Below are positions 43,371 to 48,470 of a stretch of DNA of 64,000 bases, piece by piece. Position 1 is the stretch's first letter. Each line of letters starts with the position of its first letter. Position numbers and translations under genes: made by a program. Source of the stretch: a bacterium (lineage in GTDB: Bacteria > CLD3 > SB21); NCBI GenBank assembly GCA_013360215.1, contig JABWCP010000005.1, forward strand, positions 124,001 through 188,000, in the 5' to 3' direction. The notes beneath the pieces were generated by a model. That model worked only from the letters and a program-made list of their open reading frames with translations. It did no database searches and was not told the origin of the DNA.

Positions 43371-45428
43371 ATGGCACATGACGCTCAAGCGGGCTCTTCG
43401 ACGACGGGTTCGCACCAATTCACGCCTTACATCGCACCGGAACACAATGTACCGGAGTTTACGGCTAAAGCGCTGATCCTCGGTGCGCTTTTCGGTATCA
43501 TCTTTGGCGCGGCAACGGTCTATCTTGCGCTCAAAGCAGGACTCACCGTATCCGCTTCCATTCCTATCGCTGTTCTGGCGATCTCATTGGGACGCAAACT
43601 TTTTAAAACCACGATTCTTGAAAACAACATCATTCAGACCGGTGGATCGGCAGGCGAATCCATCGCTGCCGGTGTGGTTTTTACGTTGCCCGGATTTCTC
43701 TTTCTCAGCGCTGAAAGCATGGGACCGAGTTATTTCAACTATTGGACAATTTTTGTATTAGCCATGTTCGGCGGTATTTTAGGAACGTTGATGATGGTGC
43801 CGCTGCGCCGACCGTTGATCGTACAGGAACACGGCGTACTTCCTTATCCGGAAGGAACCGCTTGCGCATCCGTTTTGGTTGCCGGCGAAAAAGGCGGTGA
43901 CTTTTCCAAAACGGCGTATCAAGGTCTTGGCTTTGCATTCATTTATGCATTCTTCCAGAAAGTATTTCACTTCATCGCCGAAACACCGGCTTGGGTCACA
44001 CAACAAACCAATAAATTTTTTCCTTCCGCCACGGTAAATGGTGAAATCACGCCGGAATACATGGGTGTAGGCTATATCATCGGACCGCGCATTGCCGGGG
44101 TGCTTGTAGCCGGCGGTGTGCTCGCATGGCTCGGTTTGATACCGCTGTTAGCATCACTGGTTCCTGCCGCAACGATAGCCGAACAACTTGTCAAACTCGG
44201 TTATTTGCCGGATATCCTCACCGCAGGCGGACCGGGCGGCTGGGATCCTGCTACGCAAACTTTTGGCAGTACCGCTACAGCCGTCTATCGTGCGTATGTG
44301 CGCCAGATCGGCGCCGGCGCTGTCGCCGCAGGCGGATTTATTACATTGATCAAAACGCTTCCCACGATCGTAAGCTCTTTTAAAGGCAGTGTCGCCTCGC
44401 TGAAAAACAAACAATCCGAAGAATCCGTGCGTCGTACGGAACGTGATCTGTCGTTTGGAACAGTAATCGCCGGTTCGCTCGGATTAATAGTTCTTATCGC
44501 CATCCTCCCCATTATCCCGGGCGATTCGATCATCAGCAAAATTGTGTTAGGTTTATTGATTATTGTATTTGGTTTTTTCTTCGTAACGGTATCAAGCCGT
44601 ATCGTCGGCATCATCGGTTCGTCATCCAATCCGATTTCCGGTATGACCATCGCCACCCTCATGGGCACAGCTTTAGTTTTTATCGGTGTAGGTTGGACGG
44701 GCAGTTTATATGAACCGATGGCACTTGTCGTCGGAGGTATGATCTGTATCGCAGCCGCTAACGCCGGTGCGACATCCCAGGATCTTAAAACCGGTTACAT
44801 CGTTGGCGCGACACCGAAGTATCAGCAGATTGCACTTTTTGTCGGCGCGATTGCCAGCTCCGCGATGATCGGATGGACGGTGCAAATCCTTGATACTCCG
44901 ACTTCCGAAATGGCCGCACAAGGCATCCAGCATGCGATCGGCACAGAAAAATACCCGGCACCCCAGGGAACATTGATGGCTACCTTGATCAAAGGTTTGT
45001 TATCATTTAACCTTGATTGGCAGTTTGTTCTTGTCGGCGCATTTGTAGCGGTGACGATGGAACTCTGCGGCGTCAAGTCGTTATCGTTTGCCGTTGGTGC
45101 ATACTTACCTCTTTCGACGACGCTTCCTATTTTTGCCGGTGGCGCCATCAAAGGTATTGCCGATTGGAATCGTTCACGTAAGGGCGAGTCGGAAGAAGAT
45201 GCGGAACTTGGCAAAGGCAGTCTCTTTGCGACAGGTCTTGTTGCCGGCGGTGCGCTCTTTGGCGTCATCGTTGCCATCGCAACTGTGTTTGCCGAAGACT
45301 TCATGAAATCCATCAATATGGAACATGCTTTCTCCGGTATTTTGGGCCAGGCCGGTTATGAAATTTTCGGTGTTATCTGTTTTGCTATCATGGGCATTAC
45401 ACTGTACCGGGTTGCAATGAAAAAGTAA
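43371..45428 (+). CDS. Oligopeptide transporter, OPT family
   Basis: A 685-residue polytopic membrane protein of the OPT superfamily, with about 14-16 hydrophobic segments. The first family motif is LGALFGIIFGAATVYLALKAG with TVSASIPIAVLAISL, then NNIIQTGGSAGESIAAGVVFTLPGFLFL, both typical of bacterial OPT proteins. Substrates are likely peptides or metal-peptide complexes. It is a single gene read toward the phenylalanine hydroxylase gene, which has its own promoter and attenuator. Confidence 0.93.
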   Translation: MAHDAQAGSSTTGSHQFTPYIAPEHNVPEFTAKALILGALFGIIFGAATVYLALKAGLTVSASIPIAVLAISLGRKLFKTTILENNIIQTGGSAGESIAAGVVFTLPGFLFLSAESMGPSYFNYWTIFVLAMFGGILGTLMMVPLRRPLIVQEHGVLPYPEGTACASVLVAGEKGGDFSKTAYQGLGFAFIYAFFQKVFHFIAETPAWVTQQTNKFFPSATVNGEITPEYMGVGYIIGPRIAGVLVAGGVLAWLGLIPLLASLVPAATIAEQLVKLGYLPDILTAGGPGGWDPATQTFGSTATAVYRAYVRQIGAGAVAAGGFITLIKTLPTIVSSFKGSVASLKNKQSEESVRRTERDLSFGTVIAGSLGLIVLIAILPIIPGDSIISKIVLGLLIIVFGFFFVTVSSRIVGIIGSSSNPISGMTIATLMGTALVFIGVGWTGSLYEPMALVVGGMICIAAANAGATSQDLKTGYIVGATPKYQQIALFVGAIASSAMIGWTVQILDTPTSEMAAQGIQHAIGTEKYPAPQGTLMATLIKGLLSFNLDWQFVLVGAFVAVTMELCGVKSLSFAVGAYLPLSTTLPIFAGGAIKGIADWNRSRKGESEEDAELGKGSLFATGLVAGGALFGVIVAIATVFAEDFMKSINMEHAFSGILGQAGYEIFGVICFAIMGITLYRVAMKK

Positions 45429-45445
45429 GTGCCGTGAACTGTTTT

Positions 45446-45474
45446 TGACTTTATAGAAAACATTACTTATTATT
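45446..45474 (+). promoter_or_regulatory. Promoter of the phenylalanine hydroxylase leader
   Basis: TTGACT (45446-45451), a 17-nt spacer, then TATTAT (45469-45474). Each hexamer matches the consensus at 5 of 6 places. The predicted start lies at or within a few nt of 45481, the ATG of the leader frame, so the leader may be translated from a nearly leaderless RNA. Confidence 0.65.
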
Positions 45475-45480
45475 TGAGAC

Positions 45481-45570
45481 ATGAAAACAGCACCTATACA
45501 TATTGAAACATCGTTTTATTATTACTTTTATCGCAACGGATCCCCGCCTTTGGAGATGCGATTAAGGTAG
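45481..45570 (+). CDS. Aromatic leader peptide of the phhA attenuator (predicted)
   Basis: A 29-codon frame (ATG 45481, TAG 45568) with a run of six aromatic codons: TTT TAT TAT TAC TTT TAT (45514-45531), giving FYYYFY at residues 12-17. It sits between a promoter and an intrinsic terminator, upstream of phenylalanine hydroxylase. This is the classic layout of amino-acid attenuation, with ribosome stalling at Tyr or Phe codons controlling the downstream hairpin. No good Shine-Dalgarno is visible. A chance frame is possible, but the run of aromatic codons in this exact place is hard to explain otherwise. Confidence 0.62.
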   Translation: MKTAPIHIETSFYYYFYRNGSPPLEMRLR

Positions 45571-45591
45571 TTTTTATTTTTAAAATCACCG

Positions 45592-45622
45592 ACCCGTTTC
45601 CCCAAAGGAAACGGGTTTTTTA
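45592..45622 (+). terminator. Attenuator-type terminator before phhA
   Basis: A perfect 10-bp stem, ACCCGTTTCC (45592-45601) with GGAAACGGGT (45607-45616), a 5-nt loop, then six T. It is 21 nt after the leader peptide stop and 30 nt before phhA. The leader word CCTTTGG (45547-45553) is complementary to CCAAAGG (45602-45608), which covers the terminator loop and the first bases of its 3' arm: a possible antiterminator. Confidence 0.85.
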
Positions 45623-45651
45623 TTTTCACCCTTTAATGAAAGGAAAACGCC

Positions 45652-46401
45652 ATGACTTTGGAAAATGAAAACCACACAACGGAAGAACTCGAAGTTTGGA
45701 GACTTTTGTTCGAACGCCAATCGTCACTGCTGCACCATACGGCATGCCAAACGTTTTTGGAAGGACTCACCGCATTGGATTTTCAACCGGACGCCATTCC
45801 TCATTTGAAATCCATCAATGCAAAACTTCGGGATATGACCGGTTGGTCGCTCACGGTAGTACCCGGCATCGTTGAGGATGCGATTTTTTTTGAAATGCTG
45901 TCGCGTAAAACATTTCCCGTTACAGGATGGTTGCGATCCAAAAAACAACTTCAGTATATCGAGGAGCCGGATATGTTTCATGATGTATTCGGACACGTCC
46001 CCATGCTAACCGATAAACAATTTTGCGGTTTCTTGGAAGGATTGAGCCGCATTGCCTTAGCCTATCCCAACAACACCTTTGTTATTGAACGCCTCGTACG
46101 TATGTATTGGTTTACGGTCGAATTCGGTTTGGTACGTGAATCCGATAACGTCAAGATTTGCGGCGCAGGAATCCTTTCATCCATCGGCGAAACGCTGTAT
46201 TGTCTCAGTGGCAAACCGCCCGTTGTGGAGTTCGATTTACATACCGTATTTGAAATGCCTTTCCGAAAGGATCGTTTTCAAGATCGGTATGTGTTGATCA
46301 ATGATTTTGAGCAGCTATTTCGATCCGTGAATCAAATGGAAGAAACTTTGTTGCGTTTGCAAAGACAAATTCAACTTCAGGTTTTATCATGGAGTTGTTG
46401 A
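45652..46401 (+). CDS. phhA: Phenylalanine 4-hydroxylase
   Basis: A 249-residue pterin-dependent aromatic amino acid hydroxylase of the short bacterial type, which converts Phe to Tyr with molecular oxygen. The iron site is intact: His110 and His115 in MFHDVFGHVP and Glu157 in YWFTVEFGL. The pterin region EPDMFHD and the phrase YNNTF-like AYPNNTFVIERL follow the family pattern. The symbol is used in the generic sense. Upstream lie a promoter, an aromatic leader peptide and a terminator that suggest control by Tyr/Phe supply. The ATG is preceded by AAAGGAAA. Confidence 0.92.
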   Translation: MTLENENHTTEELEVWRLLFERQSSLLHHTACQTFLEGLTALDFQPDAIPHLKSINAKLRDMTGWSLTVVPGIVEDAIFFEMLSRKTFPVTGWLRSKKQLQYIEEPDMFHDVFGHVPMLTDKQFCGFLEGLSRIALAYPNNTFVIERLVRMYWFTVEFGLVRESDNVKICGAGILSSIGETLYCLSGKPPVVEFDLHTVFEMPFRKDRFQDRYVLINDFEQLFRSVNQMEETLLRLQRQIQLQVLSWSC

Positions 46402-46472: not shown

Positions 46473-48470
46473 ATGAATTCAGCCAATAAATCAAACGAAA
46501 TCGAACGCATTGCGGACATGCTTCGACTGGAGATGAACAATCGTCCCAGCGAAGATTTTATTAAATCGTTTATTCGCCAAATAGACAGCCTTGCGCCCAA
46601 TGTATTACGGTATTTTCGCTCTACGCTCAGTCAGACTTTGATCGAACGCGAAAATCAAGGCAAAGGTCATCTTAAAATCGAAGCGCTTCTTGAGTTATTG
46701 GATTTATGCGATTTACAGGTGTGGCTTACTTCGGCAGGACTGCATGAAAAAGCCGCCCGTAATGTCGTCAAAGGATTAAAAAACCGATCCACGGAAGAAC
46801 TCAATAGAATCATTCACGGCAAACTCTACATCGAACACGATCGCACGGAATTACTGGAGTTCTTGGTTGATGCCGGTGTTGAAGGTGATGATGCCGAACA
46901 TTTTGTGAAGCTTGTTCGTGAGATGGATGTGTCCGTAACGGAAATTATTGACCGCATCTTCAAACTTAATTTTCTTGCCGAAAATGCCTTTCGGCAAGAA
47001 TCTTTGCGTGGTATGATGTCACTGAAAGAAATTGTGACATTATACTTATACTCGGTTTTACAAGTTACGATCAGTGACTATGTGCACGACGAAGAAACGA
47101 TAAGCGAAATAGCCGCGCGCCTTGCTTTATGTAACAATATGCGCCGTGAATTCGCTTTAGTTCAGCAATTAGAACGCTACTTTTTCAGCACTACATCCGT
47201 AGAAGACACCCAAAACAAAACACGGGATTTTTGGATCAAACTGCTGAACGATTACGAAGTGAAGCTGGCGCTGGAGCAATATATCGGTGATGATAAATTG
47301 AAACGCTCCGATATGGAGATCGCCGACCTCTATGTAGAGGCCGGGCACATTTTTGACGATGTCAGCGAGATCAAAGATCAGACTTTAGCCGTTATTTCGA
47401 TCACCTACCGGCTTGATAATCCCGAAGAAACAGGTCATACTGTCGAAGAACTTCTTGCCATCATAGATCAGATCAAACTGCTCACCACCGAGATGGGCCC
47501 GCTGAGCATTATGACAAGAGATATTTTTTCGTTTTTTGAAATCCTCGGTGAATCCGATCACAAGAATCGTTTTTTCCACAAAACAATTATTTCATTCCGT
47601 TCGTTACTACGCAAATTAGTGGATCTCAACGAAAAAACAGGCGAGCGGGTGACATTGGATCAATTAATTCTCACCTATTTACACGCGCGCCTCAAAGCTT
47701 TTCTCGAAGATTACGAGGGCCCGCGGGAAAAACATCTTGAGTCTATCAAAACTCGCATTTCCCATTGCCATGATATGCACCGTCAGTTTGCCATCACGGA
47801 CCTGGTAGAAGAACATATCTTCGAAAATCCGGGATTGCTGTTGACGCTTTCCGAACCGGATAAATACTGGCCGGAACTCATCAATACATTTGAGCTCAAT
47901 ATCATGCTGGAGATTTATATCGAGCGCGAGTATTTGGTCTCCGGGCATCACGATATGACCAAGCGCCAGATGATGGAAACTTTGCAACAGCTCATCAACG
48001 GTATTCAGGAAATTTCCATCAAAAGCCTCAGCGTGGTATTTCTCACAGCGCATCTGGCCGCTATGCAAGATCACGCCAAAAGTAAAACCGTTTCTCTTGA
48101 CGAAATCATCCAGACCATCGCTCAACTTCGCAAAGATGCGGAGATGGCTGCCAAACAGATCACCGTGGAGTCGCGTGTCAAACACGATATTCTTACGACA
48201 TTGACTGAACGGCTATTCCGTTTGGAAACGATACAAAGCGCCATCACGCTTAGTAACACTACAGATATCATAGATCGCTTAGATGAAGTGATTGTCGGTT
48301 TACGTACACGCAGAGATAATCTGATCGGCGGGAAAATGGATGCCAAAGTTTTGCAGGATGACCTGAATACTTATCTTCATGACTCAAAAGTTGTCGGATT
48401 GATTGACGAAGTAGAAAGACTGTATAAAAACGAACTTGCCCAACAGGCCAAACTTGTTGCATCCAAATAG
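46473..48470 (+). CDS. Large helical protein with an internal duplication, unknown function
   Basis: A 665-residue, almost all-helical soluble protein that I do not recognise. It has an internal repeat of about 140 residues: residues near 184-320 (LKEIVTLYLYSVLQ, CNNMRREFALVQQLERYFF, LLNDYEVKLALEQYI) align with residues near 395-535 (LDQLILTYLHARLK, CHDMHRQFAITDLVEEHIF, LINTFELNIMLEIYI). A separate helical N-terminal region (1-180) and a coiled-coil-like C-terminal region (560-665) flank them. There is no signal peptide or membrane segment. It converges on the SpoIIE-like sensor gene with only 3 nt between the stops. Confidence 0.8.
   Translation: MNSANKSNEIERIADMLRLEMNNRPSEDFIKSFIRQIDSLAPNVLRYFRSTLSQTLIERENQGKGHLKIEALLELLDLCDLQVWLTSAGLHEKAARNVVKGLKNRSTEELNRIIHGKLYIEHDRTELLEFLVDAGVEGDDAEHFVKLVREMDVSVTEIIDRIFKLNFLAENAFRQESLRGMMSLKEIVTLYLYSVLQVTISDYVHDEETISEIAARLALCNNMRREFALVQQLERYFFSTTSVEDTQNKTRDFWIKLLNDYEVKLALEQYIGDDKLKRSDMEIADLYVEAGHIFDDVSEIKDQTLAVISITYRLDNPEETGHTVEELLAIIDQIKLLTTEMGPLSIMTRDIFSFFEILGESDHKNRFFHKTIISFRSLLRKLVDLNEKTGERVTLDQLILTYLHARLKAFLEDYEGPREKHLESIKTRISHCHDMHRQFAITDLVEEHIFENPGLLLTLSEPDKYWPELINTFELNIMLEIYIEREYLVSGHHDMTKRQMMETLQQLINGIQEISIKSLSVVFLTAHLAAMQDHAKSKTVSLDEIIQTIAQLRKDAEMAAKQITVESRVKHDILTTLTERLFRLETIQSAITLSNTTDIIDRLDEVIVGLRTRRDNLIGGKMDAKVLQDDLNTYLHDSKVVGLIDEVERLYKNELAQQAKLVASK

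Follow-up and report, generated by a model that had tools for sequence, protein, structure and literature searches.

Biosynthetic genes controlled by leader-peptide attenuation, for which pheL, trpL, and hisL are the classical examples, are preceded by a short open reading frame (ORF) rich in codons for the product of the pathway, by protector, antiterminator, and terminator helices, and by a terminator placed before the structural gene. Phenylalanine 4-hydroxylase itself is regulated by attenuation in the Bacillus cereus group, where a T-box senses tRNA charging through direct contact with the tRNA and no leader peptide is involved (PMC2494555). In Sinorhizobium meliloti the trpL attenuator RNA is leaderless; that is, its 5′ end is the leader ATG (PMC7298713). 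Leader-peptide attenuation is also described in Flavobacterium psychrophilum, in the main text of a study that names the amino acid biosynthesis operons behind the leader peptides in general terms and there makes no mention of phenylalanine or tyrosine (PMC9723704).

The window (the whole 64-kb stretch of DNA that we analyzed) carries phhA, a gene for phenylalanine 4-monooxygenase, behind an arrangement of the same kind. Upstream of the gene lie an ORF with sensor codons, a protector hairpin, a computed antiterminator, and an intrinsic terminator. We consider it very probable that a ribosome-mediated transcription attenuator couples phhA to tyrosine supply, mainly by sensing charged tRNA-Tyr.

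The leader and terminator at phhA

The features of the locus are given in Table 1. The phhA product matched NF008877 just over the cutoff and also matched Pfam Biopterin_H. Downstream of the gene, at 46473 to 48470, is a 665-codon ORF with no Pfam match.

Table 1. Features at the phhA locus (positions are those of the window)
Feature	Position	Strand	Basis or remark
Promoter-like site, TTGACT-17-TATTAT	45445..45473	+	Motif match; predicted start about 45480, i.e., leader ATG
Leader peptide ORF MKTAPIHIETSFYYYFYRNGSPPLEMRLR, 29 codons	45481..45570	+	ORF list; Tyr-run leaders at the equivalent place in 30 of 80 phhA loci
Sensor codons F Y Y Y F Y (leader codons 12 to 17)	45514..45531	+	Translation
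Region 1, aromatic-codon strand of the protector hairpin (partner, region 2b)	45520..45534	+	Duplex energy, folds
Region 2a CCTTTGGAGATGCG, antiterminator 5′ strand	45547..45560	+	Folds; begins 15 nt past last Tyr codon
Region 2b TGCGATTAAGGTAGT, partner of aromatic codons	45557..45571	+	Duplex energy, folds
Intrinsic terminator, stem and U-run	45592..45624	+	Hairpin search, folding
Region 3 CGTTTCCCCAAAGG, antiterminator 3′ strand	45595..45608	+	Fold of 45541-45610
Shine-Dalgarno-like AAAGGA and phhA start codon	45639..45654	+	Sequence inspection
phhA, phenylalanine 4-monooxygenase	45652..46401	+	NF008877, Pfam Biopterin_H

The terminator hairpin, ACCCGTTTCC-CCAAA-GGAAACGGGT, occupies 45592-45616 and is followed by the U-run, 35 nt before phhA. 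Its stem is 10 bp, or optionally 11 bp via a G-T pair (45591-45617). Both the leader RNA and the terminator folded better than shuffled sequences (z = −4.0 and −4.4, respectively). On both strands of the window, the leader is the sole ORF of 10 to 60 codons with at least five consecutive F, Y, or W residues. Our coordinates agreed with those of an earlier sequence-only reading of this DNA for the 29-codon frame with its FYYYFY run, the 10-bp terminator with its T run, and phhA, as well as for the complementary words CCTTTGG (45547-45553) and CCAAAGG (45602-45608). The promoter that it had proposed (TTGACT, 17 nt, TATTAT) is present as a sigma-70-like site, although its start had been given one base late (45445 is correct). 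That site has 10 of 12 matches to the consensus, but the region gives two such sites versus 1.2 expected by chance; on its own, therefore, the promoter-like site is weak, being near chance.

Recurrence of the leader among phhA loci

A protein search of GTDB genomes yielded 80 phhA loci outside the window genome. Bacteroidota accounted for nearly all of them; one was from an unclassified bacterium, and two were labeled Pseudomonadota but fell inside the Bacteroidota tree. Because phhA is absent from relatives in the window's own family and class, conservation could not be compared among near kin. We sought terminator-like hairpins up to 330 nt upstream of phhA and counted a short ORF as a leader when a stretch of seven residues held three or more Tyr. 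A hairpin was found in 38 of the 80 loci, and in 30 of these 38 it was preceded by a Tyr-run leader ORF. Thus, the leader-terminator pair occurred in 30 of 80 phhA loci versus none in 20 dinucleotide-shuffle sets, which gave 0.8 terminators and 0 leaders per set. The regions upstream of 102 other ORFs from these loci contained 12 terminators but not one Tyr leader. The sequence-only reading had called for a comparison of the aromatic run and terminator in relatives; they recur, mainly in Bacteroidota, and the controls gave none.

In the relatives the coding runs recur (YYYYY, YYYHYYH, and YYSHYY) while the nucleotide sequence varies. Examples are MNFTHNTYYYYYQSPKGIGNGSVMHIL (L045), MTNMNSKYYYYYYYRITPFGVGVVCS (L081), MFENQAVKYYSHYYHFFSSWD (L034), and MSTATKYFNTSYYYWYFILSGQDVLCRCL (L051). 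Tyr made up 19% and Phe 5% of the residues of the 31 leaders, window included. Because the runs in the relatives are overwhelmingly Tyr, we take Tyr to be the main signal. There was no detectable leader-terminator pair in 50 of the 80 loci; in several loci in which no leader was found, phhA lies just 10 to 40 nt behind the upstream gene. Four loci from Algoriphagus and relatives (L063, L072, L082, and L086) have terminators upstream of phhA and leaders with mixed His and Tyr residues (e.g., TYVHHSYCF and TFVHHSHYH) but no Tyr run; these are possibly decayed or differently tuned attenuators.

The recurrence also bears on where transcription starts. The TATTAT box in the window ends 7 nt before the leader ATG, and about 20 of the 31 leaders have a full TAnnTTTG box, which the text of the F. 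psychrophilum study gives as the Bacteroidota −7 element (PMC9723704), ending 4 to 9 nt upstream of a leader ATG. Because of this spacing, in the window and in many Bacteroidota loci, transcription is predicted to start at or next to the leader ATG, and many of the leaders, including that of the window, are probably leaderless. A leaderless RNA had been suggested from the window alone, and the position of the promoter box in many relatives favors it, the start itself being a prediction.

In a phylogenetic tree, the window PhhA grouped with Bacteroidota sequences on a long branch that joins another long branch (L071), so the donor of the gene cannot be named. Leader presence required 11 changes on the PhhA tree versus a mean of 25 when shuffled, so leaders cluster on the tree, yet have either come and gone several times or escaped detection in some loci. 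These sequences make it plausible that the window lineage acquired phhA and its leader together by transfer. Two contigs, labeled Rickettsiales and Thalassovita (L007 and L012), carry phhA genes that fall inside the Bacteroidota tree; they are probably mis-binned metagenome contigs.

Competing helices and the proposed mechanism

Helix statistics were calculated for the 31 loci with both leader and terminator, including the window. Pairing of region 2a with the terminator 5′ arm and loop was stronger than in shuffled sequences (mean z = −2.1; P ≤ 0.05 in 20 of 31 loci). Where this pairing was significant, region 2a mostly begins 11 to 17 nt past the last Tyr codon, just beyond where a stalled ribosome would end. 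Partners were also swapped among 21 loci, each representing a distinct group; native partners averaged −14.4 kcal/mol versus −10.8 kcal/mol for swapped ones, and none of 20,000 permutations was as good. Pairing of the Tyr codons with region 2b gave a mean z of −2.4, with values below −1.64 in 22 of 31 loci.

In the window, region 2b overlaps the end of region 2a and the leader stop codon, and region 3 consists of the terminator 5′ arm, the loop, and two bases at the start of the 3′ arm. The protector duplex has an energy of −12.6 kcal/mol versus −6.4 kcal/mol in shuffled sequences, of which 1 of 300 was as good. The stretch from 45541 to 45610 folds at −19.9 kcal/mol, a value reached by 0 of 200 shuffles. 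When a ribosome sits on the final Tyr codon and the 3′ arm is still incomplete (RNA upstream of and under the ribosome was dropped from the fold), CCTTTGG-A-GA-T-GCG (45547-45560) pairs with CGT-T-TC-C-CCAAAGG (45595-45608) at −18.8 kcal/mol; with the ribosome at the stop codon, folding of the window sequence lets the terminator alone form. By computation, then, the antiterminator is mutually exclusive with the terminator and becomes available when the ribosome stalls on the sensor codons. The antiterminator, terminator, and protector of the window each beat shuffled sequences. However, when its region 2a was set against just the 5′ arm and loop, the pairing did not reach significance (matched by 36 of 200 shuffles; rank 11 of 21), and it became convincing only once the first bases of the 3′ arm were included. 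A further point against the model is that region 2b would lie entirely under a ribosome positioned at the stop codon, but region 2a only in part. Overall, all of the classical attenuator helices (protector, antiterminator, and terminator) are supported. The competition between CCTTTGG and CCAAAGG proposed in the sequence-only reading thus has statistical support, but the antiterminator is larger and stronger than that 7-bp word and includes the terminator 5′ arm; a further refinement is the protector hairpin, which the aromatic codons form with the last part of the leader.

From these features we infer the transcription start, the stalling of the ribosome, and the direction of the response. 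RNA polymerase would start at or next to the leader AUG. When Tyr-tRNA is charged, the ribosome would pass FYYYFY to the stop codon and mask region 2, and the terminator would form before phhA. When charged Tyr-tRNA is short, the ribosome would stall on the aromatic codons and occupy region 1, freeing region 2a to pair with the terminator 5′ arm and loop; termination would then fail, phhA would be made, and PhhA would convert phenylalanine, probably imported, to tyrosine. If the leader were not translated, the protector hairpin and the terminator would both form. Because two of the six sensor codons are Phe, phenylalanine shortage may also open the window copy. The attenuator put forward in the earlier proposal is supported by the recurrence at 30 of 80 loci and by the helix statistics; read-through into phhA upon tyrosine shortage would be the direction of its control.

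Metabolic role, rival readings, and known systems

The window genome, rated 100% complete, has chorismate synthase, but PDH_N, PDT, and the CM_2 chorismate mutase, each found in all or 13 of 14 control genomes, had no match in it. Pterin-4a-carbinolamine dehydratase, which recycles the PhhA cofactor, is present. Because the tested enzymes leading from chorismate to Phe and Tyr are absent and pterin recycling is present, PhhA appears from the gene content to be the only recognized tyrosine source, as judged against PDH_N, PDT, and CM_2-type chorismate mutase. The genome also lacks HisG, and its sole TrpE-like match adjoins a PabC-like gene and is probably PabB. Given these absences (HisG, CM_2, PDT, and PDH_N) and the probable PabB, the genome is probably that of a broad amino acid auxotroph, despite its chorismate synthase. 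With HisG absent and the TrpE-like match probably PabB, Trp and His attenuators of this genome were dropped as a source of evidence for the mechanism.

Among the leader-bearing genomes, 7 of 23 searched had no TyrA match (L031, L045, L051, L069, L075, L077, and L083). A DAHP synthase gene lies upstream of phhA in 20 other loci, all from Bacteroidota, 7 of them with the leader. It is on the same strand, in some cases just a few tens of nucleotides away (L009, L010, L018, L021, L029, L033, L034, L043, L047, L049, L050, L055, L057, L058, L063, L065, L067, L081, L082, and L086). Mutant fitness data assign phenylalanine hydroxylase of Echinicola vietnamensis a role in tyrosine biosynthesis (PMC7311316), and three Echinicola loci have the leader (L034, L043, and L057).

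PhhA is catabolic in some bacteria. The attenuator could be real and yet serve phenylalanine removal, or respond to Phe, as the two Phe sensor codons would allow; we regard this as improbable. Attenuation opens when an amino acid is scarce, so that induction by Tyr starvation fits tyrosine synthesis and has the wrong sign for catabolism. Homogentisate dioxygenase (HgmA) was not found in the window genome, the HPD match there is weak, far below the cutoff, and interrupted by a stop, and Tyr far outnumbers Phe in the leaders of the relatives.

Even less probable is control of phhA by a nontranslated element that binds tRNA or a ligand (a T-box or riboswitch), with the ORF a by-product, for which the B. 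cereus-group T-box sets a precedent in sensing tRNA charging at this enzyme. A T-box covariance model had no match at the window locus or in ten relatives, and no Rfam family reached its gathering score in either; known Rfam leader families were rejected, Trp_leader scoring 17.3 bits versus a gathering threshold of 41 at the window locus. Moreover, it is the coding run, not the nucleotide sequence, that recurs among the relatives. Nor do we give any real credence to the reading that the terminator merely ends the transcript of the upstream OPT-family peptide transporter gene (same strand, ending at 45428, 163 nt before the terminator) and that the aromatic ORF is incidental, which we reject because several loci keep both the leader and the terminator although their longest upstream ORF runs the other way (L030, L031, L039, L051, L069, and L075), because none of the 12 control terminators followed a Tyr-run ORF versus 30 of the 38 at phhA, and because the antiterminator complementarity would have no explanation.

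With a tyrosine-sensing leader-peptide attenuator as the preferred reading, the mechanism is a known one, whereas the target phhA and the conserved leader family appear to be new. The sequence-only reading knew of no such design for a phenylalanine hydroxylase, and we found no description of one in the literature searched, which most subscription papers lay outside; the T-box is a precedent by another device. A broader proposition is that leaderless tyrosine attenuators controlling Bacteroidota phhA form a widespread family not yet described, that the attenuator accompanied phhA in its passage to an unrelated auxotrophic lineage, and that it marks PhhA as serving regulated tyrosine synthesis and not catabolism. 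We judge this proposition to be evenly balanced between true and false. A Tyr leader would be a sign, readable in the sequence, that a phenylalanine hydroxylase is made on tyrosine shortage and serves tyrosine synthesis, and would help settle the ambiguity between anabolic and catabolic annotation of PhhA in many genomes. The phhA loci also supply a collection of leader peptides, probably leaderless, from a phylum with few leaderless mRNAs (5.5% in the F. psychrophilum text [PMC9723704]).

Compared with pheL, trpL, and hisL, the phhA attenuator has the same architecture but a different kind of target, a pterin-dependent monooxygenase that makes its product in one step from another amino acid; it occurs in Bacteroidota and one further lineage and is probably leaderless. 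It shares this last property with S. meliloti trpL, which differs in amino acid, gene, and phylum and whose start is known whereas the one here is predicted. F. psychrophilum is in the phylum of the relatives, with leader peptides at amino acid operons. The B. cereus-group T-box regulates the same enzyme, also by attenuation in response to tRNA charging, but it is an unrelated functional analogue, which suggests two independent recruitments, of a T-box and of a leader-peptide attenuator, for the sensing of tRNA charging at one enzyme.
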